Below, piece after piece: positions 42,539 to 59,156 of a DNA stretch of 64,000 nt. Both the position numbers and the translations under genes were made by a program. Every line of letters begins with the position of its first letter. Positions within the stretch are counted from its first letter, which is position 1. The DNA lies in NCBI GenBank assembly GCA_021199475.1, contig JAJQHZ010000022.1:1-64000 (forward strand), written 5' to 3'. The notes under the pieces are model-generated. The model saw nothing but the letters and a program-made list of their open reading frames with translations. It was not told the DNA's origin and made no database searches. This stretch comes from Lachnospiraceae bacterium (GTDB lineage: Bacteria > Bacillota > Clostridia > Lachnospirales > Lachnospiraceae).

Positions 42539-44854
42539 TTATCTCTTCTTCTTTTTCTTCTTTCCCGTGCTCTTCGGGGAGCCGGAAGCCTTCTGCTTTG
42601 CGGATGTCCCCTGCGCATTGGAAGCAGAAGTGGAATCAGAAGCCTGTGACTGAACTGCCGCTGCGCCTTTCGCTTCTGCATTACCAGCAGCAGGAGCCGT
42701 ACCTTCTGCCGTCGCACTGGCCGCAGCATGGGATTTCATCACATACCAGAGAGAACCGGTCACGCACACGGACGAGTAAGCGCCCGCAACCACGCCGACC
42801 ATCAGCGGCAGTGCGAATTCCTTAATCGTCGCCACACCAATCACGTACAGCATAAAGATCGTGATAAAGGTAGTAAACGATGTATAGATGCTTCGAGTCA
42901 GTGTCTGTGTCACACTCTCATTCACAATTTCCGCCAGCGGAGCACCTGCCATTACCTTCTGATTCTCGCGGATACGGTCAAAGATGACGATCGTGGCATT
43001 AATGGAATAACCGACAATGGTCAGCATGCAGGCGATGAAGGTACTGCCAATCGCAATCCGTACAATCGCATAGCAGGCAAATACCACAAGCACGTCATGC
43101 AGCAGTGCCAGAACCGCACTTCCCGCGAAACGCACATCATGGAAACGAATCGTAATATAAATCAGCATGCAGAGTGCAGCTACGATTACAGCAACCACAG
43201 CGTCCTGACGCATTTCATTGCTGACGGTCGCGGAGATGGATTCATAGGTAATCGCCGTCGCATCCAGATCATAGGCCTCCTGCAATGCCTCTGACACCTC
43301 TTCGCGCTGATCCAGGTCCAGCACGTTGGTCTTAATATAGACGTCCGAAGAACCCTGCACCGTCTGGAACTGTACCTCAGCATCTCCGGTCACTTCTGTG
43401 AAAATCGGCTTCACATCCGCTTCCAGCTCGTCCAGCGTCATTTCTTCATTAAATGTAACCGTCGTAGACGTACCGCCCTTGAAATCCAGACTCAGGTTCA
43501 GCACACCGTTCCCCATCGCTGCATTGATCCCCATGAATGCCGGGCCAAGCAGAATCAGAACCAGAGAAATCGCGAAAAACGTGCGGCGGTGTCCAACGAA
43601 ATCAAATGTCTTGAAGGTTCTTGCCTTCCCATAATACTTCTCATCCCGGAAGCCAATCTGATACAGGGCATTGATAATCAGTCTGGCAATAATCAGCGCG
43701 GTAATCATAGAAAGCACAATACCAAGCGCCAGAGTCTGGGCAAAACCCTTCACACTTCCGGTTCCAAGCATATTCAGGACAAAAGCAGCAATCAGTGTCG
43801 TCACGTTGCCGTCCAGAATCGCGCTGAACGCTTTTTTAAATCCGGTATCAATCGCACCCTTTACGGACTTCCCGGCGGATATCTCTTCACGGATACGCGC
43901 GTAAATGATTACGTTGGCGTCGACCGCCATACCAATCGTCAGGATGATACCGGCGATACCCGGAAGCGTCAGGGTCAGGTCAAACCCATTGATGCAGATC
44001 AGGAACATACAGATGTAAAGCAGCAGACAGAAGGCTGCTACAACACCGGGCAGAGCGTACACAACAATCATGAAAATCATCACAATCGCAATACCAATCC
44101 CACCGGCGATCAGGCTGGTCTTGATCGCATTCTGGCCAAGCTGCGCTCCGACCACCTTTGAACTGAGCTCTTCAAGCTCCAGGGAAAGTGCACCGATGCG
44201 GATGGATGATGCAAGGCTCTGCGCCTCTTCTACACCGCTCATACCGGAGATAATCGCTGTACCGCCCGTGATCGCCTCATTCACGACCGGAGCACTGATG
44301 ATTTCATCATTATAAACGATATAAATATAATTCCCTACATTTTCCGACGTAGCAGTAGCAAATGCTTCTTTTCCGGAACTGGTCAGTTCCAGCTGCACGA
44401 CATATTCGGTATTCCCGAGATCATCCTGCTGCGTCGCGGCGGAAGCCGTATCAATGTCCGACCCGGTCAGGACCACCGTGCCGTCTTCCAGCTGGAATTC
44501 CAGAGAACCGGGCTGTCCCAGCTCCTCGAGAACCGCATTAACATCCGACACACCCGGAATCTCAATGTTGATCCGGTCAGAGCCTTCCTGATATACGTTC
44601 GCCTCTGTGCTGTAGGTATCCGCACGCTGCTGCAGCTTGTATACCGTGTCGCTCATCTCTTCCGCGGTCGGATTTTCATCCACGACCTGATACGTCACGC
44701 TGACACCGCCGGACAGATCCAGCCCCAGGATGATGTTTTTTGCCGAGCCCTTACTCTGCGGTCCGAGACCGACCACAGTGACAACGGCAAAAAAGACCAG
44801 CAGCACCGCCATCAGAATGAGCGTGACCCTCGCGCTCTTCTTATTCATTTTCAT
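42539..44854 (-). CDS. secDF: Fused SecD-SecF protein translocase subunit
   Basis: GLDLSGGVSVTYQVV, MAVDANVIIYARIREE (SecD) plus SLDFKGGTSTTVTF, INATIVIFDRIREN (SecF) in one ORF. Confidence 0.95.
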   Translation of the reverse strand: MKMNKKSARVTLILMAVLLVFFAVVTVVGLGPQSKGSAKNIILGLDLSGGVSVTYQVVDENPTAEEMSDTVYKLQQRADTYSTEANVYQEGSDRINIEIPGVSDVNAVLEELGQPGSLEFQLEDGTVVLTGSDIDTASAATQQDDLGNTEYVVQLELTSSGKEAFATATSENVGNYIYIVYNDEIISAPVVNEAITGGTAIISGMSGVEEAQSLASSIRIGALSLELEELSSKVVGAQLGQNAIKTSLIAGGIGIAIVMIFMIVVYALPGVVAAFCLLLYICMFLICINGFDLTLTLPGIAGIILTIGMAVDANVIIYARIREEISAGKSVKGAIDTGFKKAFSAILDGNVTTLIAAFVLNMLGTGSVKGFAQTLALGIVLSMITALIIARLIINALYQIGFRDEKYYGKARTFKTFDFVGHRRTFFAISLVLILLGPAFMGINAAMGNGVLNLSLDFKGGTSTTVTFNEEMTLDELEADVKPIFTEVTGDAEVQFQTVQGSSDVYIKTNVLDLDQREEVSEALQEAYDLDATAITYESISATVSNEMRQDAVVAVIVAALCMLIYITIRFHDVRFAGSAVLALLHDVLVVFACYAIVRIAIGSTFIACMLTIVGYSINATIVIFDRIRENQKVMAGAPLAEIVNESVTQTLTRSIYTSFTTFITIFMLYVIGVATIKEFALPLMVGVVAGAYSSVCVTGSLWYVMKSHAAASATAEGTAPAAGNAEAKGAAAVQSQASDSTSASNAQGTSAKQKASGSPKSTGKKKKKKR

Positions 44855-44878
44855 AATCGTCTTCCTCCTCACTAGGTA

Positions 44879-46486
44879 TTACAGTTCCGCCTGCGCGGCT
44901 TTCATCATGATTGCGCACTCGACGCGCTTGCGCTGAAGCTCACAGCCGATGTCATAGGTATCCTGAATGGTTCCATGAAAATTGTAAGAATTCGCCGCGC
45001 AGCCGCCGCTGCAATAGAACTTCGCGAAGCAATTCCGGCATTTTTCTTTCGTATAGACATTGCAGCCCCTGAACTGATCCACAATATCCGGGCGTGTCAC
45101 GCCCTCGTCTACATTCCCCATCAAATACTCTTCATGTCCGACAAACTGGTGGCATGGATACAAATCCCCCCATGGAGTCACAGCAAGATATTCCGTGCCG
45201 GATCCGCAGCCCGACAACCGCTTATAAACGCACGGTCCACCAGTTAAATCTATCATAAAATGGAAAAAAGTAAAGCCCTTTCCTTCTTTTTCCCGTTTTA
45301 CCATTTCCGCGGCCAGCCGGTCATATTCCGAAAAAATCTGCGGAATGTCTTCCGGACGAATCGCATATTCCTCTGTCTCATCCGCCACAACCGGTTCTAC
45401 CGATATACGGTCAAACCCTTCATCCGCCAGATGCAGCACGTCGCTGCAAAAGTCCAGATTGTGGCGCGTGAATGTTCCGCGCACATACCAGGTTTTTTCA
45501 TCGGAAACCCTCTTCTCCGACCGAAGCTCCACAAAATGTTTGAATTTCGGCATAATCAGATCATAGCTGCCCTTTCCGCTCCGGAACGGACGCATATAGT
45601 CATGCACCTGCGGACGGCCGTCAATGCTGAGGACAACGTTTGCCATCTCCTGATTCAGAAATTCCATAATCTCGTCATTTAAAAGCACGCCGTTTGTCGT
45701 CATCGTAAAGCGGAAATTTTTATTATGTATCTTTTCCTGCTCCCTGCCGTACCGGACCAGATCTTTCACGACCTGCCAGTTCATCAGGGGCTCCCCGCCG
45801 AAGAAGTCTACCTCCAGATTGCGCCGCGAACCGGAATTCGCAATCAGAAAATCCAGAGCCTTTTTCCCGACCTCATAGCTCATCAGCGCCCGTCTGCCGT
45901 GGTACTCACCTTCCTCTGCAAAGCAATAGCGGCAGGCCAGGTTGCAGTCATGCGCAATGTGCAGGCAGAGCGCCTTGACGACCGTCTTTCGTGCCTTGTA
46001 ATCCATGATCGAGTTTTCATAAATGTCTTCGGTAAACAGTACGCCCATACGGGCCAGCTGCCCGCATTCATCCAGAGACTCCCGAAGCTCCTTCGCGGTA
46101 TAACGCCCGGAAAGCGCATTCAAGACCGCATTCTCGATTTCCGGCGTCCATACCCGGTTCGTCTCCTCTCTGCTCCCGCCCCCATCCGGCAGCTCCCGGC
46201 ATTCCTCTTTCGAAGAAGTCAGAGCCTCGCAAGCAATATGCTCCTCCCCGGCATCTATGGTCTCTTCATTCAAGACCGGTTCTGCATCTGCGCAGTCCGC
46301 GCACTCCGTCTGCGTGCAAGTAAAAGCAGCATGCGCGCTGCCTTGAACGGACTCTTTCTCCCTGCATGACAGATTCGCGTCCAGCTGGGCTATCACATCA
46401 TAAGTCACATCATCAACGACATGGACCGCGCCGCTGTTGACATCCAGTACTATATTGTAACCATTGTTCCGATACTGGTGAATCAC
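44879..46486 (-). CDS. scfB: SCIFF thioether maturase (radical SAM, SPASM/twitch; ScfB/CteB-like)
   Basis: LHIAHDCNLACRYCFAEEGEYHG, DFFGGEPLMNW, CGSGTEYLAVTPWGDLYPCHQFVG, CRNCFAKFYCSGGCAANSYNF; adjacent SCIFF peptide. Confidence 0.93.
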   Translation of the reverse strand: MIHQYRNNGYNIVLDVNSGAVHVVDDVTYDVIAQLDANLSCREKESVQGSAHAAFTCTQTECADCADAEPVLNEETIDAGEEHIACEALTSSKEECRELPDGGGSREETNRVWTPEIENAVLNALSGRYTAKELRESLDECGQLARMGVLFTEDIYENSIMDYKARKTVVKALCLHIAHDCNLACRYCFAEEGEYHGRRALMSYEVGKKALDFLIANSGSRRNLEVDFFGGEPLMNWQVVKDLVRYGREQEKIHNKNFRFTMTTNGVLLNDEIMEFLNQEMANVVLSIDGRPQVHDYMRPFRSGKGSYDLIMPKFKHFVELRSEKRVSDEKTWYVRGTFTRHNLDFCSDVLHLADEGFDRISVEPVVADETEEYAIRPEDIPQIFSEYDRLAAEMVKREKEGKGFTFFHFMIDLTGGPCVYKRLSGCGSGTEYLAVTPWGDLYPCHQFVGHEEYLMGNVDEGVTRPDIVDQFRGCNVYTKEKCRNCFAKFYCSGGCAANSYNFHGTIQDTYDIGCELQRKRVECAIMMKAAQAEL

Positions 46487-47770: not shown

Positions 47771-49846
47771 TTACTCCTGCGAAGCTGCATGCTTCCCGGC
47801 AATCATACCAAACGTATAGCAGCGTCCCAGCGACAATCCGGTCTGGTGGAACGGATAATCATTGCCGCCGTAGAACGGTCCGCCAAGGTTGCCCACACAA
47901 TAGAGTCCCTCGATCACCTCGCCGTCCGCATTCAGTGCCTGACCGTTTTCATTGATCATAACGCCGGAGCAGACCGCAGACACACGGATATGCTTGCGCA
48001 CACCCCAGAATGGAGCAGTCTTGATCGGGTGCATATACTTCGCCGGCTTTCCGAAGTCCACGTCGTCCCCCGTCTCGCAGAGCTCATTGTAGCGGTCTAC
48101 ACTCGCCTGCAAGGCATCATACGGAATGCCAAGATTCTCTGCCAGCTCCTCAAGCGTATCGCAGCAATAGCTGTCAATCAGATAATCAAACACACCCTCC
48201 GGGTTCTCCACCGCGCCCGGGATGTACTTCTGCATCGCCGCAGCCGGAACCATTGAGCTAACGAACTCATCCGACGGCCAGTTCTCATAATCGCTGTCGT
48301 AAATCGTGCAGTACCAGCCCTTTGAGCCGTCCGGATGGTTGGAATCTACATTGTTTCCATTATAACGCCCCTGGAACTTCAGGATATTGCCCATGTAAAC
48401 AAATCCAGTGTATTCATTCGTGAAACGCTCACCGTCCATATTCACATAAAGGAACGGCTCCTCATACATCAGTCCGGAGTCAAAGTCATGCATCATCTTT
48501 GTGTGGCCGAGCGGTTCCATCTTTCCGCCCGCGCTGAGTGCGAGTACATAGCCGTCGCCGGTCTTATGATACTGTTTCTTGTCAAAATCAGCAATATCCG
48601 GGCACCAGCGGTTTACCATCGCATCATTATTCATATAGTCGCCGGTCGCCAGGATCACGCCCTTCGACGCATTGTACTGTATGTACCTGCCGTCCGAATC
48701 CTTCCCGATCACACCGGTCACCTTATCGCCGTCCATCACGAGCTGCACCGCCGGCGTATTGTAGAATACTTCCAGATTCGAATTTGCTTCCGCGACATTA
48801 TCAAGAACAATCTGCAGCACCGTGCCGACATTCTGCGGCTTCGGTCCGATCCACGGAGCCATAAAATAGCAGTGGTCGTCGCCGTATGCGTAGCTGTCCA
48901 GGCGGTCGCTCCAGACACCGGTCAGATCCTGACTCGTGCTCATATAAGCATACAGACCGTCTCCGTTGTTCAGAAGCTCAGCACAGTTCGTATTGTCATC
49001 CACCTTTGTGCCGTCGCCGTACTCCGTCTCAGACGTCAGTCCCGCGCGGTTCAGATACCACATCAGAGCCTCCTCCGAATTGTCCGCGTAGGCCTGCAGA
49101 AGCTTCGTGTCAGCTCTCCAGTCGTCCAGTGCATTCGTGTGGTGAATCCACTTCTGAATTCCGGCTTCCGTTGATTTGGACTTAATGATCGCGGAGCCGC
49201 AGTTTCCCTGTGATACAACGCTCGCTTCCTTCTGAAGCAGCGCTACGGAAACGCCTGCCTCCGCCGCAAAGCCGGCCGCCACGACACCGGCCGCGCCCGC
49301 ACCGACTACAACCACGTCAAAGTCCTTCGTCTCATCCGGCGTCACTTCCCCAAGCTCACAGGCGGAAGCCTCCACCTCTTCCGCGGTCAGCGAATCCGGA
49401 ACTTCATAATCGGAAGAAGCCGCGTTCGAGGAAATCTCGACCGTCTCTCCCTTCGCCTGCGCGATGCAGGCAGCTGCCGCTTTTGCCGCCGCCGTAGAAG
49501 TCGTCGTCGCACCGCTGACACCGTCGATCTCTGAATTCTGCGCATCCATAATCTGCTGCGCCAGCTCTTCTCCGTACAAAGCGCCGATGGTTTCCGTCTC
49601 CTCCGATACATCGACCACGACATCCGTGATGCTCTCCGCGTCAAAGGTCATCGTCACCGTCACTGTGCCAATGCCCTGAGCAGTCGCGCTGTAGGTACCC
49701 GGCGTGTACGTCCCTGCCTCCTCCGCAAATGCCGTCATACCGGTGCCAAGAATCCCTGCCGCCGCCGCGCCAAGCGCGCCCGCAGCCGTCCCCTTCAAAA
49801 AGTCGCGGCGCGATAAGGTGCTGTGCTGCTTTTTTTCTCTTTCCAT
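47771..49846 (-). CDS. Tat-exported FMN-binding domain plus FAD-dependent fumarate/urocanate-reductase-like flavoprotein
   Basis: SRRDFLKGTAAGALGAAAAGILGTGMTAFA Tat signal; FMN-binding domain DGVSGATTTS; VVVVGAGAAGVVAAGFAAEAGVSVALLQK FAD Rossmann; C-term VIEGLYCVGNLGG. Confidence 0.93.
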   Translation of the reverse strand: MEREKKQHSTLSRRDFLKGTAAGALGAAAAGILGTGMTAFAEEAGTYTPGTYSATAQGIGTVTVTMTFDAESITDVVVDVSEETETIGALYGEELAQQIMDAQNSEIDGVSGATTTSTAAAKAAAACIAQAKGETVEISSNAASSDYEVPDSLTAEEVEASACELGEVTPDETKDFDVVVVGAGAAGVVAAGFAAEAGVSVALLQKEASVVSQGNCGSAIIKSKSTEAGIQKWIHHTNALDDWRADTKLLQAYADNSEEALMWYLNRAGLTSETEYGDGTKVDDNTNCAELLNNGDGLYAYMSTSQDLTGVWSDRLDSYAYGDDHCYFMAPWIGPKPQNVGTVLQIVLDNVAEANSNLEVFYNTPAVQLVMDGDKVTGVIGKDSDGRYIQYNASKGVILATGDYMNNDAMVNRWCPDIADFDKKQYHKTGDGYVLALSAGGKMEPLGHTKMMHDFDSGLMYEEPFLYVNMDGERFTNEYTGFVYMGNILKFQGRYNGNNVDSNHPDGSKGWYCTIYDSDYENWPSDEFVSSMVPAAAMQKYIPGAVENPEGVFDYLIDSYCCDTLEELAENLGIPYDALQASVDRYNELCETGDDVDFGKPAKYMHPIKTAPFWGVRKHIRVSAVCSGVMINENGQALNADGEVIEGLYCVGNLGGPFYGGNDYPFHQTGLSLGRCYTFGMIAGKHAASQE

Positions 49847-50127: not shown

Positions 50128-50595
50128 ATGAAAATCGGCATGACAGAGATTTTACTTATTTTAGTTGTCGCTCTGTTTGTCGCCGGACCCGACAAGCTTC
50201 CCTATTATGCGAAAAAATTCGGAGAATCTTTGCGCTCCATCCGGGATATCTCGTCAGAGGCCACAAAGGAAATCCGCGAAAATGTCGTGGAGCCGCTCAA
50301 TGAAGCCCAAAAGCCTCTTCGAGAAGCGATGGAACCGGTCACAGAGATGACAAAAGAGGTCAACGATAATGTAAGAGAAATCAAAAAGTCTTTTACCGAT
50401 CTCAGTAAGCCAACCAAATCGGAGCCGGTCAAAGCGAAAACGGATGACTTTGCGGATGCGCAGCCATCCGTTCCGGCAGCCGAGCGAAATGCAGGCGCGC
50501 CGACAGCCAACAATTCCGCGGAAGTATCCCCGGGCGTTCCGGCTGCAGATACCGAAAGCGCGGCGGAAGCAGATGCTTCTGCCCTGGCGGTGTAA
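50128..50595 (+). CDS. TatA/TatB-like twin-arginine translocase subunit with long variable C-terminus
   Basis: MTEILLILVVALFVAGPDKLPYYAKKFGESLRSIRD. Confidence 0.88.
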   Translation: MKIGMTEILLILVVALFVAGPDKLPYYAKKFGESLRSIRDISSEATKEIRENVVEPLNEAQKPLREAMEPVTEMTKEVNDNVREIKKSFTDLSKPTKSEPVKAKTDDFADAQPSVPAAERNAGAPTANNSAEVSPGVPAADTESAAEADASALAV

Positions 50596-50652: not shown

Positions 50653-50829
50653 ATGAAACTGGGAACTACAGAGTTACTGATTATTCTCGCAATTGTCATT
50701 GTTCTGTTTGGGCCGAGCCAGATCCCGAAGCTGACAAAAATGTTTGGCAAAAGCGCGAAAAGCTTTCGCGAGGGAATGAATGAGGACGATGCACAGACCG
50801 ACAATAAAACAACTACGACGGAGCAGTGA
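50653..50829 (+). CDS. tatA: TatA-like subunit (58 aa; below the ORF track cutoff)
   Basis: MKLGTTELLIILAIVIVLFGPSQIPKLTKMFGKSAKSFREGMNEDDAQTDNKTTTTEQ; TGATG overlap with tatC. Confidence 0.92.
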   Translation: MKLGTTELLIILAIVIVLFGPSQIPKLTKMFGKSAKSFREGMNEDDAQTDNKTTTTEQ

Positions 50830-51590
50830 TGAAAAAGCAAAAAGAAACTGGTGGCGATATGCCGCTTTCTGGTCATCTGCGCGAGCTGCGCAATCGACTC
50901 GGCATCTGTATTGTCAGTCTGGTCGTTGCATTCCTCGTTGCTCTTTATTTTTCACAGGATATCATCACTTTTTTGACGGATATCGGCGATGTGTACGGCT
51001 ATGAATTCGTCTACATTGCTCCGCAGGAGCTGCTGTTGGAACAGTTTTCTGTTTCGCTTGTCGCGGCGGTCTGCATCGCTTCTCCGATTCTTATTTACCA
51101 TATCTGGGCGTTTATTCAGCCCGGCCTGAAGAAGAACGAGAATTCCATGTTTGCCGCCGTCCTCATATCGGGCTTAATCTGTTTTGTCATCGGCATTCTG
51201 TTTGCCTATAAAATCATGCTTCCGTTTATGCTGAAGTTTCTGATCGGCATCAGTGCAGGCAGCGGAATCACTGCTTCCATCAGTGTGGAAAAGTATGTGT
51301 CCTTTTTGCTCACCATTTTCCTGATTTTCGGGGTCATTTTCGAGCTTCCGGTCGTATCTGTACTTCTCACTCAGATCGGACTTTTGAAGGTCGAATGGAT
51401 GAAAAAGGCATTCAAACCGGCAATTATTGTCATTTTCCTGATTGCCGCCATCGTGACGCCGCCGGATATCGTATCACAGACCATGGTCGCATTCCCGATG
51501 ATCGGACTGTATGAGCTGAGTATACTCCTCTCCTCTTTTCTTCTCCGCTTTCGGCGAAAAAAGAAAGTGGACAAGGATGGGGAGCAGTAA
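50829..51590 (+). CDS. tatC: Sec-independent protein translocase TatC
   Basis: MPLSGHLRELRNRLGICIVSLVVAF, PQELLLEQFSVSLVAA, YHIWAFIQPGLKKNE, PPDIVSQTMVAFPMIGLYELSILLS. Confidence 0.95.
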   Translation: MKKQKETGGDMPLSGHLRELRNRLGICIVSLVVAFLVALYFSQDIITFLTDIGDVYGYEFVYIAPQELLLEQFSVSLVAAVCIASPILIYHIWAFIQPGLKKNENSMFAAVLISGLICFVIGILFAYKIMLPFMLKFLIGISAGSGITASISVEKYVSFLLTIFLIFGVIFELPVVSVLLTQIGLLKVEWMKKAFKPAIIVIFLIAAIVTPPDIVSQTMVAFPMIGLYELSILLSSFLLRFRRKKKVDKDGEQ

Positions 51591-51668
51591 GTAACAAATC
51601 TGCAGGTGAACGGAATCCCCGTTTCCTATAAATTTTACATTATTCTAAAGGAAAGAAAGGAATTCAGT

Positions 51669-53939
51669 ATGGGTAAAGAAATTGTTTCACGGACAACCTT
51701 CGTGAAAGGCGTGACCGCCTGCGTTGTGGTAGCCGCCAGTCTGGGAATCATAAAGATTGGCGATTATGCGGTCACCTCTTCCGAAGAAACTGCGGCCTCC
51801 ACCACGGCCACAACAGGCAGCGCTAGCTATACCCCCGGAACCTATACGGCTACTTCGGCGGGCATTTCCAGTGATGTCTCGGTAACCTGTACGTTTGATG
51901 AGAGCAGCATCACCGCAATCGAAATCGACGTATCCGGTGAGACTGCTGACATCGGCGCCGCGATCGGTGACGAAATGATCGAACAGTTTATGGCCGCACA
52001 GAGTTCTGCCGTAGACGGTGTATCCGGCGCCACTATTACCTCCGATGCGCTGAAAGCAGCGCTGGAGGATTGCATTGCACAGGCGACCGGAGGCTCTTCT
52101 GATGAGGGAGAAGAGGCGATTACCGAAGAAGAATCCGAAAAAGAAACCGCCGAAGTGACAGAAACGGAAACCGAGAGTGTAGCTGAGGCAGATGAAGAGG
52201 CGGAAACGAAAACCGAAGATTTGGCTGAAGCAGATGAAGATGCAACAGATTCTGCCGAAGCAGAAACAGCTGAGGCGGTAGCAGATGAGGATACCTCCTC
52301 TCAGACAAGCTCCTCCGCCCGCTACACACCGGGTACCTACACGGCCACCGCGGCAGGCATGGAAAGTGATGTAACCGTTACGATCACGGTCGACGAAAAC
52401 AGCATCCTTTCCGTTGGCTGCAACGTCTCTGGTGAGACCGAAGGGGTCGGCGCAGCCATCGGACCGGAAATCATCGCTCAGATTCTGGATGCGCAGTCCG
52501 CAGATGTCGATGGCGTCTCTGGCGCGACCGTTACCTCAGATGCTGTCAAAACCGCAGCGGCAGACGCACTCTCTCAGGCGGCTGGCGATGCAGCAGAACC
52601 CTCCGAAGAAGAAACTGATGATGCAGAGGCAGACACGGCCGAACCTGAAACGGATACGGATATTGAAGCGGAAGCTGTTGAAGATGAAACCGATTCCGCG
52701 GATGCCGATGCAGAAGAATCCGAAGCCGATACTGACGCAGTCGAAATGGAGACGGAATCTGCCGAAGCTGAATCCGATATGGAAACCGCCAAGACCGATC
52801 CTGCTGATGCAGAGACAGAGAGCGCAGAAGAAGATGCTGCAGCAGCCGCTTCCGGCGCGTACACACCGGGGACCTACTCTGCAAGCGCGGCCGGCATCGC
52901 CAGCGATGTAACGGTCACGATTATTGTAGACGAGGACAGTATCCTTTCTGTTGGCTACGATTTATCCGGTGAGACCGACGGCATTGGCGCCGATATCGGA
53001 CCGGAAATCAGTGCACAGATCCTTGCCGCGCAGTCAGCGGATATTGATGGAGTTTCGGGGGCGACAGTCACCTCGGATGCCGTAAAATCTGCCATCGCGG
53101 ACTGTATTGCACAGGCACAGGCCGACACTTCCGGCACAGCTGGGGAATCCGCAGCAGATACAGAGGATGACGCAGAACCCGAATCAGAGGATGAGACCGA
53201 AGCCGGAACAGACGATGCCGAAACAGAGGAGGCTGAGACAGAGCTCACCACCACCGATGCACTTGAGGCAGACTATGTCTCCTCGTTTACTCCAGGTACC
53301 TATTCTTCCACCGCAGAAGGCTATTCGGCAGAGATCACAGTGACAATGACCTTTGATGAGACCAGTATTCTTGAGATGGATGCAGATACCTCAGGTGAAA
53401 CATCTACCTATGCACTGATCGACGAAGATGTGATTGCCCAGATTCTTGAGGCACAGTCTGTCGACGTAGACGGCATTTCCGGTGCGACTGCCACGACAGA
53501 CGCGATCCTGGAAGCCGCCGCGGACTGCATCGCGCAGGCACAGAGTGATTCCGCTGCAGACATCATCGGCGGGGCGGACGGGTCAACGGCAATTTTCGTC
53601 GCAGGCAAAGAAGAAGAGACAGAAAGCGAAGAAGAGACCGGATCTGAAGATGTCTCCGCAGCTTATGTTCCGGGCAGCTATACTGCTTCTGCCGATGGTA
53701 TCAGCAGTACGATTACGGTTTCCGTTTCGTTTGATGAAAATCGTATGTACCGCATTGATTATGATCTTTCCGGTGAGACGGAGGATATCGGAGCCGCGAT
53801 CGGACCGGAGATTACCAGCAGGATTTTGGACGCGCAGTCAGCTGAGGTAGATGGCGTTACAGGTGCCACCGTTACATCCGACGCGGTAAAATCTGCGGTT
53901 GCAGATTGCATTACTCAGGCGCTCTCCGATGCCAAATAA
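51669..53939 (+). CDS. Exported/membrane-anchored protein with five FMN-binding domains
   Basis: Five repeats of (Y/F)xPGxYxAxAxG...DVDGVSGATVTSDAVKxAxxDCIAQA separated by Glu/Asp/Thr/Ala-rich linkers; N-terminal TM TFVKGVTACVVVAASLGIIKIG. Confidence 0.93.
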   Translation: MGKEIVSRTTFVKGVTACVVVAASLGIIKIGDYAVTSSEETAASTTATTGSASYTPGTYTATSAGISSDVSVTCTFDESSITAIEIDVSGETADIGAAIGDEMIEQFMAAQSSAVDGVSGATITSDALKAALEDCIAQATGGSSDEGEEAITEEESEKETAEVTETETESVAEADEEAETKTEDLAEADEDATDSAEAETAEAVADEDTSSQTSSSARYTPGTYTATAAGMESDVTVTITVDENSILSVGCNVSGETEGVGAAIGPEIIAQILDAQSADVDGVSGATVTSDAVKTAAADALSQAAGDAAEPSEEETDDAEADTAEPETDTDIEAEAVEDETDSADADAEESEADTDAVEMETESAEAESDMETAKTDPADAETESAEEDAAAAASGAYTPGTYSASAAGIASDVTVTIIVDEDSILSVGYDLSGETDGIGADIGPEISAQILAAQSADIDGVSGATVTSDAVKSAIADCIAQAQADTSGTAGESAADTEDDAEPESEDETEAGTDDAETEEAETELTTTDALEADYVSSFTPGTYSSTAEGYSAEITVTMTFDETSILEMDADTSGETSTYALIDEDVIAQILEAQSVDVDGISGATATTDAILEAAADCIAQAQSDSAADIIGGADGSTAIFVAGKEEETESEEETGSEDVSAAYVPGSYTASADGISSTITVSVSFDENRMYRIDYDLSGETEDIGAAIGPEITSRILDAQSAEVDGVTGATVTSDAVKSAVADCITQALSDAK

Positions 53940-54038: not shown

Positions 54039-55373
54039 ATGAAGCTAAAAACATTCCGGGGTGGCATTCATCCCGAGGGATACAAGGAGCTTTCGCTTGG
54101 AGCGCCGGTTCGGCCATATCTCCCGAAGGGCGACCTTGTATTCCCTGTTAACCAGCACATTGGCAAGCCGGCAAAGCCGGTCGTGGCAAAGGGCGATCTC
54201 GTGCTGGCAGGACAGACAATTGCGGAAGCGGACGGATTCGTCTCCGCAAATATCGTCAGCTCCTGCTCCGGCAAGGTAAAGGCCATTGAAGAACGCCGCG
54301 TCGCCTCCGGCGCAAAAGCAATGTGCATTGTCATTGAAAATGACGGCAATTACACCCTCGCAGAGGGCGTCGGCAAAAAGCACCATGCCGGTACCTTTTC
54401 CAATAAGGATATTCTGGATGCGATCCAGAAGGCCGGCATCGTCGGCATGGGCGGCGCGGGATTCCCGACCCATGTAAAGCTCTCTGTTAAAAAACCGGAA
54501 GCCATCGATTTTGTCATTGCAAACGGATCCGAATGTGAACCGTATATTACCTGCGACGACCGTCTGATGCAGGATAAAAGCCGGGGCATTCTCGACGGCC
54601 TGCGGCTGGTGCTCCAGCTGTTCCCGGACGCGATGGGCGTCATTGCGATAGAGGACAACAAGCCGGAGGCCATCAAAGCCATGGAAGCAGTCTGTGCCGG
54701 TGAGAAGGGCGTCATGGTACAGCCAGTCAAGGCCAAATATCCGGAGGGCGGCGAGCGCAACCTGATTTCTGTTGTCAGCGGACGCGATCTGAAGTTCGGA
54801 CAGCTCCCGGCGGATGTCGGCTGTGTCGTCTGCAATGTCGCCACCCTTTACGCAATCTACCGTGCAACCTATTATTCTGAGCCGCTGATGAAGCGGTATT
54901 TCACCGTGTCCGGCGACGCGGTTTCCGCCCCTGCGACGTTCGAGGTTCCCATCGGTACCTCTTTCGCAGAGCTTGTGGAAGCTGCCGGAGGATTACGCCC
55001 GGAGATTACTCTGAAAAAGGCATTGAGCGGCGGACCGATGATGGGCATCGCAATGCCATCTCTCGATGCTCCGACCACCAAGGCCAGCAATGCGATGACG
55101 CTTCTCGCCGAGGATGAGGTGGAGCTTGCCCAGGCACAGCAGACCGCCTGTATCCGCTGCGGGCGCTGTTCCCGTGCATGTCCGATTCATCTGATTCCGC
55201 AGATGATGGCGGATGCGGCTGAGAAAAAAGACTACGAGCAGTATGAGAAGCGGCTGTATGGCCTCGACTGCATCGCCTGCGGATCCTGTACCTGGGTATG
55301 TCCGGCAAAGCGTCCGCTGATGCAGCTGTTCAAACAGGCTAAGGCCGAGATTCTTGCGGCTAAGAGAAAGTGA
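54039..55373 (+). CDS. rnfC: Rnf electron transport complex subunit C
   Basis: FRGGIHPEGYKELS, GMGGAGFPTHVKL, CIRCGRCSRACPIHLIP, CIACGSCTWVCPAKRPLMQ. Confidence 0.96.
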   Translation: MKLKTFRGGIHPEGYKELSLGAPVRPYLPKGDLVFPVNQHIGKPAKPVVAKGDLVLAGQTIAEADGFVSANIVSSCSGKVKAIEERRVASGAKAMCIVIENDGNYTLAEGVGKKHHAGTFSNKDILDAIQKAGIVGMGGAGFPTHVKLSVKKPEAIDFVIANGSECEPYITCDDRLMQDKSRGILDGLRLVLQLFPDAMGVIAIEDNKPEAIKAMEAVCAGEKGVMVQPVKAKYPEGGERNLISVVSGRDLKFGQLPADVGCVVCNVATLYAIYRATYYSEPLMKRYFTVSGDAVSAPATFEVPIGTSFAELVEAAGGLRPEITLKKALSGGPMMGIAMPSLDAPTTKASNAMTLLAEDEVELAQAQQTACIRCGRCSRACPIHLIPQMMADAAEKKDYEQYEKRLYGLDCIACGSCTWVCPAKRPLMQLFKQAKAEILAAKRK

Positions 55374-55383
55374 GGGATGTGAC

Positions 55384-56931
55384 ATGAATGAAAAACAGCT
55401 TTTGAATATTTCTTCCAGCCCTCATATCCGAAACAGGAAGCTTACGACCGGACAGGTGATGCTGGATGTCGTGCTGGCTCTGATGCCGGCCACCGTTTTT
55501 GGCGTTGTACGCTATGGACTGCATGCGTTTCTGGTGATTCTGCTCTCCGTCTTTACTGCCGTGCTGGCGGAATACGTGTTTGACCTCATCGCAAAGAGGC
55601 CGAACACAATAAAGGATGGCAGCGCGGTCGTGACCGGTCTGCTGCTGGCACTCTCCCTTCCGCCGGAAGCGCCGCTTTATCTGCCGGTGCTCGGCAGCCT
55701 TTTCGCAATCCTGGTCGTAAAGAGCTTCTTTGGCGGACTTGGAAAGAACTTTCTGAACCCCGCGCTCGCAGCGCGCTGCTTCCTGCTGATTTCGTTCGGC
55801 ACCGCTATGACGAATTTCAGTGTGGATGGGGTCAGCTCTGCGACTCCGCTCGCTGCGCTGAATGCCGGCGACGCGGTCAACGTTGCGAAGATTTACCTTG
55901 GCACTGCGAACGGTGTCATTGGTGGTTCCGCTCTGGCTCTTTTGATCGGCGGGTTATACCTGTGGGCCGCTGGCGGGATTACATTGGAGATTCCGGTTTC
56001 CTGCATCGTCGCCTTTACCTTATTTATGGGAATTTTCGGCGAGGGAGGCTTTGCTCCCGCCTATCTGATCGCACAGATCTGCGGCGGCGGACTTCTGATG
56101 GGTGCGTTTTTTATGGCAACTGACCCGGTCACCAGCCCGGTCACCTCGCGCGGACATATTGTCTATGGCGCGATTATCGGAATACTCGGCGGTCTGTTCC
56201 GTGTATATGGTTCCTCCGCTGATTCCTTCAGCTATGCGATTATTATCACCAATATGCTTGTTCCGTTCATTGACAAGCTTCCGATTCCGAAGCCTCTCGG
56301 CTACAAGGGCGGCGAGTATAAGGAGCGGGAATTCCCGAAGGCCGCCATCAACCTGACGGTGATCACCCTTGTCGCAGGTCTGCTCTTAAGCGGCGTTTAC
56401 GCGATGACCAAATCCAAGATTGCCGAACAGGAAATGGCAGACAGTCTCGCTTCCTACCAGGAGGTATGCCCTGACGCGGAATCCTTCCAGTATGACTCCG
56501 ATCTGGACGATGCGATTGAGGCGCTCGGCGATGACATCTATGATTCTGCTTTCGGGAAGACCTATATCAATGAAGCGGTCGTCGGCTATGACGCAAACGG
56601 CGAGATTGTCGGATACGTCATCAGCGTTACAAGCGGAGACGGCTTCGACGGCGACATCACTCTTTCCGTTGGTCTCACGACAGATGGCACAGTGGTTAAG
56701 ATTGCCTTCACAACTCTGAATGAAACGGCCGGCATGGGCATGCGTGTAGACGAGGATGCGTTCAAGGGGCAATTTGAGGGTGTCAGCACAGACGCATTTG
56801 TCCTGAATAAATCTGGCGGCTCTACTGAAGAAAATGAAATTGACACAGTATCCGGTGCTTCTACCTCTTCGGGAGCTGTAGTAAATGCCGTCAATACCGC
56901 GCTCGCATTCTTTGCCGCAAATATCGGATAA
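55384..56931 (+). CDS. rnfD: Fused RnfD-RnfG electron transport complex subunit
   Basis: RnfD: SSPHIRNRKLTTGQVMLDVVLALMPA, DGVSSATPL, FFMATDPVTSPVTSRG; then RnfG: AINLTVITLVAGLLLSGVYAMTKSKI ... NETAGMGMRVDEDAFKGQFEG ... DTVSGASTSSGAVVNAV. Confidence 0.93.
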   Translation: MNEKQLLNISSSPHIRNRKLTTGQVMLDVVLALMPATVFGVVRYGLHAFLVILLSVFTAVLAEYVFDLIAKRPNTIKDGSAVVTGLLLALSLPPEAPLYLPVLGSLFAILVVKSFFGGLGKNFLNPALAARCFLLISFGTAMTNFSVDGVSSATPLAALNAGDAVNVAKIYLGTANGVIGGSALALLIGGLYLWAAGGITLEIPVSCIVAFTLFMGIFGEGGFAPAYLIAQICGGGLLMGAFFMATDPVTSPVTSRGHIVYGAIIGILGGLFRVYGSSADSFSYAIIITNMLVPFIDKLPIPKPLGYKGGEYKEREFPKAAINLTVITLVAGLLLSGVYAMTKSKIAEQEMADSLASYQEVCPDAESFQYDSDLDDAIEALGDDIYDSAFGKTYINEAVVGYDANGEIVGYVISVTSGDGFDGDITLSVGLTTDGTVVKIAFTTLNETAGMGMRVDEDAFKGQFEGVSTDAFVLNKSGGSTEENEIDTVSGASTSSGAVVNAVNTALAFFAANIG

Positions 56932-56965: not shown

Positions 56966-57640
56966 ATGAACCAATATCTGGAACGGATTTATAATGGTGT
57001 CGTGAAGGAAAATCCGTCACTGATTCTGATGCTTGGCATGTGCCCCACCCTCGCGGTGACCACATCCGCGATCAACGGAATCGGTATGGGCATTTCCACC
57101 ATGATCGTCCTGATTTTTTCAAACCTCATTATTTCCGCGCTGCGCAATGTCATCCCGGATGAAGTGCGCCTGCCGGCCTATATCGTTATCACGGCTTCGC
57201 TCGTGACCATCGTGGATCTGCTGATGCAGGCCTACACACCGGGACTCTACGATGCGCTGGGCATTTACATTCCGCTGATCGTAGTAAACTGCATCATTCT
57301 TGGCCGCGCGGAAGCATACGCGAACAAGCACACCCCGGATCTCGCGGTGTTCGATGGCATCGGTATGGGACTTGGGTTTACCATTGCGCTGACCGTCATC
57401 GGTCTCGTGCGTGAGCTGGTTGGTGCGGGAACCGCATTCGGATTTACCATTCTGCCGGATTCTGTACCGCCCATTGCGATTTTCGTAAAAGCGCCGGGCG
57501 CATTCCTGGTGATCGCGTTCATCATCGCGATTATGAACGGCGTACATATCCACACCGAAGCAAATAAAAAGGTGGAGGGCTGCGACGGCTGCTGCGCAAC
57601 CTGTTCTGTCAGCCATGATAAGGAGGAGGCGAACGCATGA
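56966..57640 (+). CDS. rnfE: Rnf electron transport complex subunit E
   Basis: NPSLILMLGMCPTLAVTTSAINGIGMG, LVRELVGAGTAFG. Confidence 0.95.
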   Translation: MNQYLERIYNGVVKENPSLILMLGMCPTLAVTTSAINGIGMGISTMIVLIFSNLIISALRNVIPDEVRLPAYIVITASLVTIVDLLMQAYTPGLYDALGIYIPLIVVNCIILGRAEAYANKHTPDLAVFDGIGMGLGFTIALTVIGLVRELVGAGTAFGFTILPDSVPPIAIFVKAPGAFLVIAFIIAIMNGVHIHTEANKKVEGCDGCCATCSVSHDKEEANA

Positions 57641-58218
57641 ATTCTCTGTTTTTAATCATTATCACAACAGCGCTGATTGATAACGTCGTGCTGAGCCAGT
57701 TTCTTGGAATCTGCTCCTTCCTTGGCGTATCAAAGCAAATCAAAACCTCAGCCAGCCTCGGCGCGGCGGTTATCTTTGTCATTACGATTGCTTCAGCTGT
57801 AGCGAATCTGCTGTATACGTTCATCCTGGAGCCGCTGGATCTGACGTATCTGAACACCATCGTGTTTATTCTGGTCATTGCGACCCTGGTGCAGATCGTC
57901 GAAATGTTCCTGAAAAAGGTAGCTCCGCCGCTTTATCAGGCCCTCGGCATTTATCTTCCGCTGATTACCACGAACTGCGCGGTGCTCGGCGTAGCTCTGA
58001 CCAATGTGCAGGATGGCTATAATTTTGTCGAAAGCGTAGTTGCCGGATTCGGCACAGCGGTTGGATACACCATCGCGATTGTCGTGCTGGCGGGTATTCG
58101 TGAGCGTATCGACGAATCGGCCATTCCGGCTCCATTTCGCGGCGCGCCGGTTGTACTGCTCTCTGCTGCCCTGATGTCTATCGCGTTTATGGGCTTCAGC
58201 GGTCTGTCGCTTGGATGA
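57637..58218 (+). CDS. rnfA: Rnf electron transport complex subunit A
   Basis: TTALIDNVVLSQFLGICSFLGVS, LPLITTNCAVLGVAL. Confidence 0.95.
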   Translation: MNSLFLIIITTALIDNVVLSQFLGICSFLGVSKQIKTSASLGAAVIFVITIASAVANLLYTFILEPLDLTYLNTIVFILVIATLVQIVEMFLKKVAPPLYQALGIYLPLITTNCAVLGVALTNVQDGYNFVESVVAGFGTAVGYTIAIVVLAGIRERIDESAIPAPFRGAPVVLLSAALMSIAFMGFSGLSLG

Positions 58219-58253: not shown

Positions 58254-59042
58254 ATGTATCCTGTACTGATCGCTACGGTGACTGTGGCGGTGATCGGCTT
58301 TGTGATGGGAATGCTCCTGATCACTGTCGGAAAAAAATTCAAAGTAGAAGTAGATGAAAAACAGCTCGCAGTCCGCGAATACCTGCCCGGAAACAACTGC
58401 GGCGGGTGCGGCTACGCCGGCTGTGACGCGATGGCGGCCGCTATCGCAAAGGGCGAAGCTCCTGTCAATGGCTGTCCGGTCGGCGGCGCGCCGGTGGCTG
58501 AAAAAATCAGCCAGGTGATGGGTGTCAGCGCGGATGCGCAGGAAAAACAGGTCGCATTTGTCAAATGTGCCGGTACCTGTGAACACACGTCACAGCAAAG
58601 CAATTACATTGGCATCCACGACTGCGCTGCTGCCGTTTCGAGCGGGCTTTCTCCATGGGCCTGTGATTATGGCTGCCTTGGTCTTGGCACCTGCGAAAAG
58701 GCCTGTCCGTTCGGCGCCATTCACGTTGTGAACGGGGTCGCTGTCGTCGACCGCAGTCTGTGCAAGGCCTGCGGCAAATGCGTTTCCGCCTGCCCGAAGC
58801 ATCTGATCGAGCTGATTCCGGACAAGGCTTCCTATGCAGTGCGCTGCTCCAGCAAGGACAGAGGTCCTGCTGTGAAGAAGAACTGCGACATCGGCTGCAT
58901 CGGCTGTAAGCTTTGTGTAAAGCAATGCGAGCACGAAGCCATCACTGTGGAGAATAACATCGCTCATATCGACTATGAGAAATGCGTCGGATGCGGCAAA
59001 TGTGCGGAAAAATGCCCGGCAAAGGCAATCGTGATGCGATAG
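58254..59042 (+). CDS. rnfB: Rnf electron transport complex subunit B (ferredoxin-type)
   Basis: LPGNNCGGCGYAGCDAMAAAIA; multiple CxxCxxCxxxCP clusters. Confidence 0.95.
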   Translation: MYPVLIATVTVAVIGFVMGMLLITVGKKFKVEVDEKQLAVREYLPGNNCGGCGYAGCDAMAAAIAKGEAPVNGCPVGGAPVAEKISQVMGVSADAQEKQVAFVKCAGTCEHTSQQSNYIGIHDCAAAVSSGLSPWACDYGCLGLGTCEKACPFGAIHVVNGVAVVDRSLCKACGKCVSACPKHLIELIPDKASYAVRCSSKDRGPAVKKNCDIGCIGCKLCVKQCEHEAITVENNIAHIDYEKCVGCGKCAEKCPAKAIVMR

Positions 59043-59065
59043 TTTTATAATAAAAGAATAAAAAC

Positions 59066-59094
59066 GAGCAGGAAGCAAAAACCGCTTCCTGCTC
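59066..59094 (+). terminator. Rho-independent terminator at end of rnf operon
   Basis: GAGCAGGAAGCaaaaaccGCTTCCTGCTCatttcttttt. Confidence 0.85.
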
Positions 59095-59156
59095 ATTTCT
59101 TTTTCTCAGATAATCGCGAAGGACGAATTGCCAGACAGCTAGCTATTGCGCCTCCA

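Follow-up and report, generated by a model that had tools for sequence, protein, structure and literature searches.

Proteins that bear several covalently bound flavins on one chain were described as the multi-flavinylated class in 2021 (Meheust; 2081 proteins from 1530 genomes, with up to 13 sites; PMC8238504). They were proposed to resemble multi-heme cytochromes and some are encoded in RNF clusters, where a multi-flavinylated RnfG was proposed to direct electrons to alternative acceptors outside the cell (PMC8238504). AlphaFold models of such proteins have the appearance of beads on a string (Huang 2024, PMC11334425). The ApbE motif reads D-x-x-[ST]-G-A-[ST], and FMN is attached to its last residue (PMC12052999). 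CbFMN4 and SaFMN3 were purified and structures of single domains exist; covalent FMN sits on the same Thr in CbFMN4-D1 and SaFMN3-D2, and mass data show three FMNs on full-length SaFMN3, which has a single potential of −184 mV (PMC10339131). In the literature on this class we found no demonstrated partner or purpose of multi-flavinylated proteins, and the word Tat is absent from PMC8238504 and PMC11334425.

Here, we analyzed a gene for a protein with five FMN_bind domains located between tatC and rnfC of a Lachnospiraceae bacterium, in a stretch of 64,000 nucleotides, hereafter called the window. The nearest named relative (L037) is a Lachnospiraceae MAG (JAJQDT010000044.1) with an ortholog of 811 amino acids, 78% identical over the alignment, and the same gene order. 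Loci of relatives were annotated by BLAST and by domain profile.

Gene order and surroundings

The features of the locus are the following.

47771..49846, − strand: Tat-type flavin reductase (P0002) with the signal SRRDFLKG, one FMN_bind domain and FAD_binding_2
50128..50595, + strand: tatA/B-type gene (Pfam TatA_B_E, 5.2e-11)
50653..50829, + strand: tatA-type gene (Pfam TatA_B_E, 2.7e-12)
50829..51590, + strand: tatC (Pfam TatC, 2e-61)
51669..53939, + strand: multi-FMN protein (P0001), 756 amino acids, five FMN_bind domains; Pfam, and orthologs throughout the genus
54039..55373, + strand: rnfC (Pfam Complex1_51K, 4.7e-49; RnfC_N, 3.7e-36)
55384..56931, + strand: rnfD-rnfG fusion (Pfam NQR2_RnfD_RnfE, 2.4e-98; FMN_bind, 2.2e-14)
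56966..57640, + strand: rnfE, named by position and resemblance; order conserved in relatives
57637..58218, + strand: rnfA, named by position and resemblance; order conserved
58254..59042, + strand: rnfB, named by position and Cys-rich ferredoxin-like sequence; order conserved
59060..59100, bidirectional: terminator-like hairpin closing the cluster (19-pair stem on the − strand, 11-pair stem on the + strand)

The row tatA-tatA-tatC-multiFMN-rnfC-rnfDG-rnfE-rnfA-rnfB lies on one strand and is a predicted operon, judged from spacing, strand and conservation; terminator-like matches within the row were weaker than the closing hairpin and did not exceed a shuffled control. In the fusion protein, the RnfD part has the probable covalent-FMN motif DGVSSAT, while the RnfG part has DTVSGAS with Ser instead of Thr as acceptor. 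The fusion with its Ser acceptor is conserved in L037. The multi-FMN protein was also considered as the RnfG subunit itself, which was rejected because RnfG is fused to RnfD at 55384-56931.

The reductase P0002 matched FAD_binding_2 (5.8e-43) and FMN_bind (6.6e-9), with TAT_signal just under the cut-off, and among solved structures it is closest to those of flavocytochrome c fumarate reductases and of urocanate reductase. Its gene is divergent to tatA, and a copy is present at the same place in eight species, window included. P0002 is likely the terminal partner of the multi-FMN protein. The genome has one gene for ApbE and 11 FMN_bind domains, and it encodes five reductases with both FMN and FAD domains, three of them with twin-arginine signals.

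Judged by sequence, a radical SAM maturase-like gene (44879-46486) and a fused SecD-SecF-like gene (42539-44872) flank this respiratory island, and both stay beside it in several relatives. In another genus of the same family (L096), tatA, tatA, tatC and a gene for a Tat-type flavin reductase come after rnfCDEAB, all on one strand, which indicates that the adjacency of tat and rnf genes extends beyond the genus.

Domains and linkers of the multi-FMN protein

The open reading frame has its mechanical GTG start at 51606 and ends at 53939; with the ATG at 51669 the product has 756 amino acids, and this start agrees with that of the L037 ortholog. The five tandem FMN-binding domains of the original prediction were recovered by the Pfam scan as five stretches of PF04205 (FMN_bind; whole-protein E = 1.8e-48), and in the search of the genome all of them individually exceeded the family cut-off (40-52 bits versus 22). 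With at least two FMN_bind domains in one polypeptide, the protein belongs to the multi-flavinylated class by domain count.

51828..52100, + strand: FMN domain 1 (residues 54-144), pocket I/T/I, motif DGVSGAT
52101..52322, + strand: linker 1, 74 amino acids, 41% D/E
52323..52595, + strand: FMN domain 2 (residues 219-309), pocket M/T/V, motif DGVSGAT
52596..52859, + strand: linker 2, 88 amino acids, 44% D/E
52860..53132, + strand: FMN domain 3 (residues 398-488), pocket I/T/I, motif DGVSGAT
53133..53285, + strand: linker 3, 51 amino acids, 41% D/E
53286..53555, + strand: FMN domain 4, aromatic-sandwich variant (residues 540-629), Tyr552/Thr578/Tyr581, acceptor Thr607, motif DGISGAT
53556..53663, + strand: linker 4, 36 amino acids, 30% D/E
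53664..53936, + strand: FMN domain 5 (residues 666-756), pocket I/T/I, motif DGVTGAT

The ApbE motif is intact in all five domains, within a few bases of where the flavinylation motifs had been predicted. Also as predicted, the linkers are acidic and of unequal length, the first three with more than 40% D/E, and the 720 residues after the first 36 have a net charge of −165. Pairwise identity among the domains is 47-73%, with domain 4 lowest (47-54%). A direct repeat of 242 nt occurs within the gene in four copies (63-76% identity to the reference copy), which shows the tandem origin of the domains and is not due to chance. FAD_binding_2 was not found in the protein, FMN_bind being the sole Pfam family above the cut-off, and the protein is therefore not a flavin reductase of the fumarate/urocanate type. 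AlphaFold, which had been suggested for the linker spacing, was run at full length with two sequences and gave five small alpha-beta units, but with a pLDDT of 40.8 it held no information on spacing.

N-terminus and export

51669..51767, + strand: putative N-terminal anchor MGKEIVSRTTFVKGVTACVVVAASLGIIKIGDY, resembling a Tat signal but lacking the twin arginine

The chain had been predicted to be exported, in line with which an export or anchor segment appears to be present at its N-terminus. This N-terminus (MGKEIVSRTTFVKGVTACVVVAASLG) is similar to the signal (MEKGQISRRTFIKGIAAGAVSVAALG) of the slot reductases, i.e. the reductases encoded between tatC and rnfC in some relatives; the motif is SRTTFVKG in the multi-FMN protein and SRRTFIKG in the slot reductase. 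The twin arginine is present in 15/15 reductases but in none of 18 multi-FMN proteins and none of three single-domain proteins, all counts coming from related species that are not independent. The Kyte-Doolittle values of the hydrophobic core do not overlap either (1.83-2.35 in non-reductase FMN proteins, 1.43-1.79 in reductases). A hydrophobic N-terminal segment with a positive flank is conserved in the 18 multi-FMN proteins, and no AxA site was seen in the N-terminus of the protein studied here. Export by Tat was rejected as first choice for the multi-FMN protein, as RR is absent in all 18 proteins with a readable N-terminus. The N-terminal sequences suggest instead that it is anchored in the membrane without Tat. 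Possibly the FAD domain was lost (or not yet gained), whereby folded export by Tat would be unneeded and the tat genes would serve the reductases. The absence of RR exactly where the FAD domain is absent suggests a rule, namely that FAD enzymes need Tat while chains loaded by ApbE do not.

The slot between tatC and rnfC in relatives

In the whole-protein search of genome contigs, most search patterns hit the linkers and only one near-complete ortholog was thus obtained. The search in the genus gave matches in 32/47 genomes, and the family sample gave matches at 1e-15 in 16/299 genomes, some of which are reductases or other multi-FMN proteins. In 22/22 contigs having both tatC and rnfC (window included), an FMN protein is encoded between the two genes and on their strand; as the loci were picked for matching the multi-FMN protein, this count describes gene order among carriers and not presence in the genus. 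The slot contains a multi-FMN protein alone in 13 contigs (five domains in seven, four in three, six in two and seven in one), a multi-FMN protein together with a single-FMN protein in three or with a flavin reductase in two, and a reductase alone in four. In these contigs, the multi-FMN proteins of the slot have 3-7 domains. These contents and the related N-termini indicate that multi-FMN protein and reductase share one slot. L092 and L093 are without tatC, yet a one-domain protein is kept before rnfC.

A tree of 113 domains (91 columns) was poorly resolved, but in it domain 1 clusters with its counterparts from close relatives, and recent duplicates within single proteins are seen in several species, e.g. 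in L071 (domains 3 and 5), L085 (domains 3 and 4) and L074 (domains 3 and 4). The number of domains is thus changing while the N-terminal unit is retained. Altered motifs (GVT, GCT, SSAT) with the acceptor Thr kept occur in domains 1-2 of L073, L074, L086 and L082, in L077 and L079, and in domain 4 of L037, which has SSAT instead of SGAT. Changes of Gly to Ala or Ala to Val in the motif were reported to give about 50% flavinylation (review PMC12052999), and by analogy the altered domains may be loaded only partially. In L085, domain 2 is an FMN_bind domain that has entirely lost the flavinylation motif. The weaker motifs and this loss indicate that full loading is not essential everywhere. With one to seven FMN domains, a reductase, or both near Rnf, the slot represents a natural series in which domain number can be set against flux, reach and storage.

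Domain 4 and its flavin pocket

The original prediction that domain 4 lacks the segment IGAAIGPEI was incorrect: in its place domain 4 has 'Y-ALIDEDV', in which one residue is deleted, and four other species keep this replacement. In CbFMN4-D1 the flavin lies between Tyr11 and Leu40, Thr37 bonds N5 and Thr67 bears the FMN (PMC10339131). The aligned positions read I/T/I in domains 1, 3 and 5, M/T/V in domain 2 and Y/T/Y in domain 4, Tyr552 and Tyr581 being placed in the pocket by sequence alignment. Among 98 domains of non-reductase FMN proteins, aromatics occupy both flavin faces in seven (YY, YW, FF), which stem from only two clades and so represent about two independent events, and one face alone in none. 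The FMN domains of reductases have the pocket I/T/I in 15/15 cases.

An AlphaFold2 model of domain 4 (pLDDT 82; strands 4-11, 16-23 and 28-34, helices 41-56 and 69-87) had CbFMN4-D1 (8p2b) as its best fold match in the PDB (TM 0.76/0.81). As modeled, domain 4 fits the FMN-bind1 fold, a three-stranded sheet and two helices with the FMN-bearing Thr opening the last helix. By sequence it also scored better against CbFMN4-D1 (4.1e-9) than domain 3 did (7.2e-7). Domain 4 forms its own clade of five species (SH-aLRT 99). A decaying domain was considered as well and rejected in view of this clade with its conserved pocket.

Stacked aromatics alter flavin potentials in flavodoxins. The predicted distinct redox potential of domain 4 gains support in this respect, because both flavin-stacking positions are Tyr and not aliphatic, which is the case in domain 4 only; from the aligned residues it is a reasonable inference that the aromatic pocket probably shifts the potential. 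Domain 4 lends itself to a specific test of the idea that a single aromatic pocket creates a step in potential.

Proposed role in electron transfer

We think it rather probable that the multi-FMN protein is anchored in the membrane, is multi-flavinylated and carries electrons from the Rnf complex to exported flavin reductases. The chain would be inserted without Tat and, outside the membrane, would receive up to five FMNs from ApbE. Rnf, i.e. its ferredoxin side and the flavins of RnfD and RnfG, would reduce the FMN beads, which on their flexible acidic linkers could collide with the FMN domains of flavin reductases exported by Tat and so hand over electrons, and these reductases in turn would reduce organic acceptors. 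Rnf normally returns electrons to NAD+; here, they would be diverted outward. The number of beads (1-7) would be adjustable in evolution, and some species would have one aromatic-pocket bead, probably with a shifted potential. As to the flavin wire or electron buffer that had been predicted, the general idea agrees with the published proposal for the class (PMC8238504) and fits the context of Rnf and reductases, but a rigid wire is disfavored by flexible linkers of 36-88 amino acids. Being long and unlikely to be structured, the linkers point to transfer by collisions of tethered domains and not to a fixed wire.

The main rival is an electron buffer, in which up to ten electrons coming from Rnf would be kept on the five flavins until an acceptor becomes available, transport over distance being unneeded. 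The single potential of the three FMNs of SaFMN3 (−184 mV; PMC10339131) implies no built-in direction, four of the five pockets in the protein studied here are aliphatic and similar, and the domain number varies from 1 to 7 in an otherwise unchanged operon, all of which would suit a store. However, the single aromatic-pocket domain conserved in five species suggests more than storage and the reductases paired in the same slot suggest throughput, so that we consider pure buffering unlikely.

Another rival is a chain that spans the wall and gives its electrons directly to extracellular acceptors, soluble or solid (iron, free flavins, quinones); flavin-based extracellular electron transfer of this kind was proposed for other Gram-positive bacteria. 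Dedicated flavin reductases in or beside the operon speak against it, and beside the locus we noticed no genes for iron transport or wall binding. Such an outlet was proposed for the class (PMC8238504), and an anchor with long expanded linkers, for which a reach of tens of nanometres was estimated from the chain length, could cross a Gram-positive wall, but we give it only a small chance. An elongated accessory of RnfG inside the Rnf cycle, e.g. a shuttle between RnfD and RnfG with no outward branch, would agree with the position upstream of rnfC in every relative examined, but is highly improbable, as RnfD and RnfG are present, fused and equipped with their own motifs, and most sampled family genomes are without a match (16/299 matching).

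An OadB-like peptide in linker 4

53562..53609, + strand: OadB-like peptide IIGGADGSTAIFVAGK (residues 632-647), matching the Na+-site motif of OadB, the beta subunit of a decarboxylase that pumps Na+

The peptide in linker 4 matches residues 195-213 of OadB 6iva, and the OadB of the same genome reads IIGGADGPTSIFLAGK. Its consensus is [IV]IGGADGPT[SA]IF[LIV]AGK, and about 14 orthologs in the genus carry it within a linker or in the C-terminal tail. The 16-residue peptide, identical or nearly identical to IIGGADGPTSIFLAGK, is also found in L037 (12041-12088), L105, L140, L164, L133, L157, L174, L161, L153, L226, L255, L258 and L259; its bearers in Clostridia are unrelated and for the most part membrane or secreted proteins. 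A strict DNA pattern for the peptide was run on 120 family, 300 phylum and 47 genus genomes; a reversed-pattern control gave no match in any of the genomes listed. Most matches are OadB itself. Proteins without OadB homology elsewhere carry the peptide in at least 14 genomes of the family and at least six elsewhere in the phylum, numbers that are lower bounds because the matches examined were a chosen subset in which genomes with multiple matches were favored; the genus has further bearers.

In Clostridia the peptide is present in at least ten unrelated proteins, and the hosts include M56/BlaR1 sensors, HAAS-domain proteins, a cyclophilin-like protein, small two-helix membrane proteins and secreted proteins, the latter with the peptide just past the signal peptide or at the C-terminus. 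By eye, it is mostly located just outside a membrane helix or after a signal peptide, while no membrane segment was apparent in the hosts of L144, L159, L175, L219 and L222. The match of the hosts to Pfam OAD_beta covers 22-52 residues and stays below the cut-off; the small two-helix hosts could be fragments of OadB, the larger hosts hardly so. A 461-aa reading frame of L255 ends with two tandem copies (SVGIIGGADGPTSIFLAGKLGSNESILGGADGPTDIFLAGKQETEE). A recently mobile DNA element is unlikely, since the codons differ widely among the copies. A literature search for GGADGPT and variants gave no match. We tentatively suggest, at somewhat less than even chance, that the peptide is an undescribed tag, mostly on extracytoplasmic proteins, with the multi-FMN carrier as one bearer; a function in docking, sorting or proteolysis is a guess. 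Should it be confirmed, the surface proteins of gut Clostridia would have a motif of a new kind.

Comparison with known systems

Like other members of the multi-flavinylated class, the protein combines several FMN-bind1 domains and motifs in a single, probably extracytosolic chain, and the class is associated with electron donors in the membrane, RNF among them. It differs in being a separate protein whose gene lies between tatC and an rnf cluster that is complete, RnfG included, and by its very acidic linkers, one aromatic-pocket domain, a degenerate Tat signal and the OadB-like peptide. With CbFMN4 (Clostridiaceae bacterium, PDB 8p2b), a single anchored chain of four domains, it shares the fold and the predicted site of covalent FMN, domain 4 being 34% identical. 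However, the domains of CbFMN4 are more than 80% alike (47-73% here), its linkers are rich in small residues (here mostly more than 40% acidic), and its pocket is Tyr/Leu instead of Ile/Ile, Met/Val or Tyr/Tyr. SaFMN3 (Streptomyces azureus, PDB 8p2a), for which three covalent FMNs were shown, has an N-terminal anchor, as is probable for the protein studied here, and several FMN domains, but these are uniform and of one potential, and it belongs to a different bacterial group. UrdA and the flavocytochrome c fumarate reductases combine FMN_bind with FAD_binding_2, as do P0002 and the slot reductases, whereas the multi-FMN protein, unlike such extracytosolic flavin reductases, is without an FAD domain. 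The central idea of a multi-flavinylated chain is therefore already known; new are the operon setting, the exchange within the slot, the aromatic-pocket variant, the missing twin arginine and the peptide.
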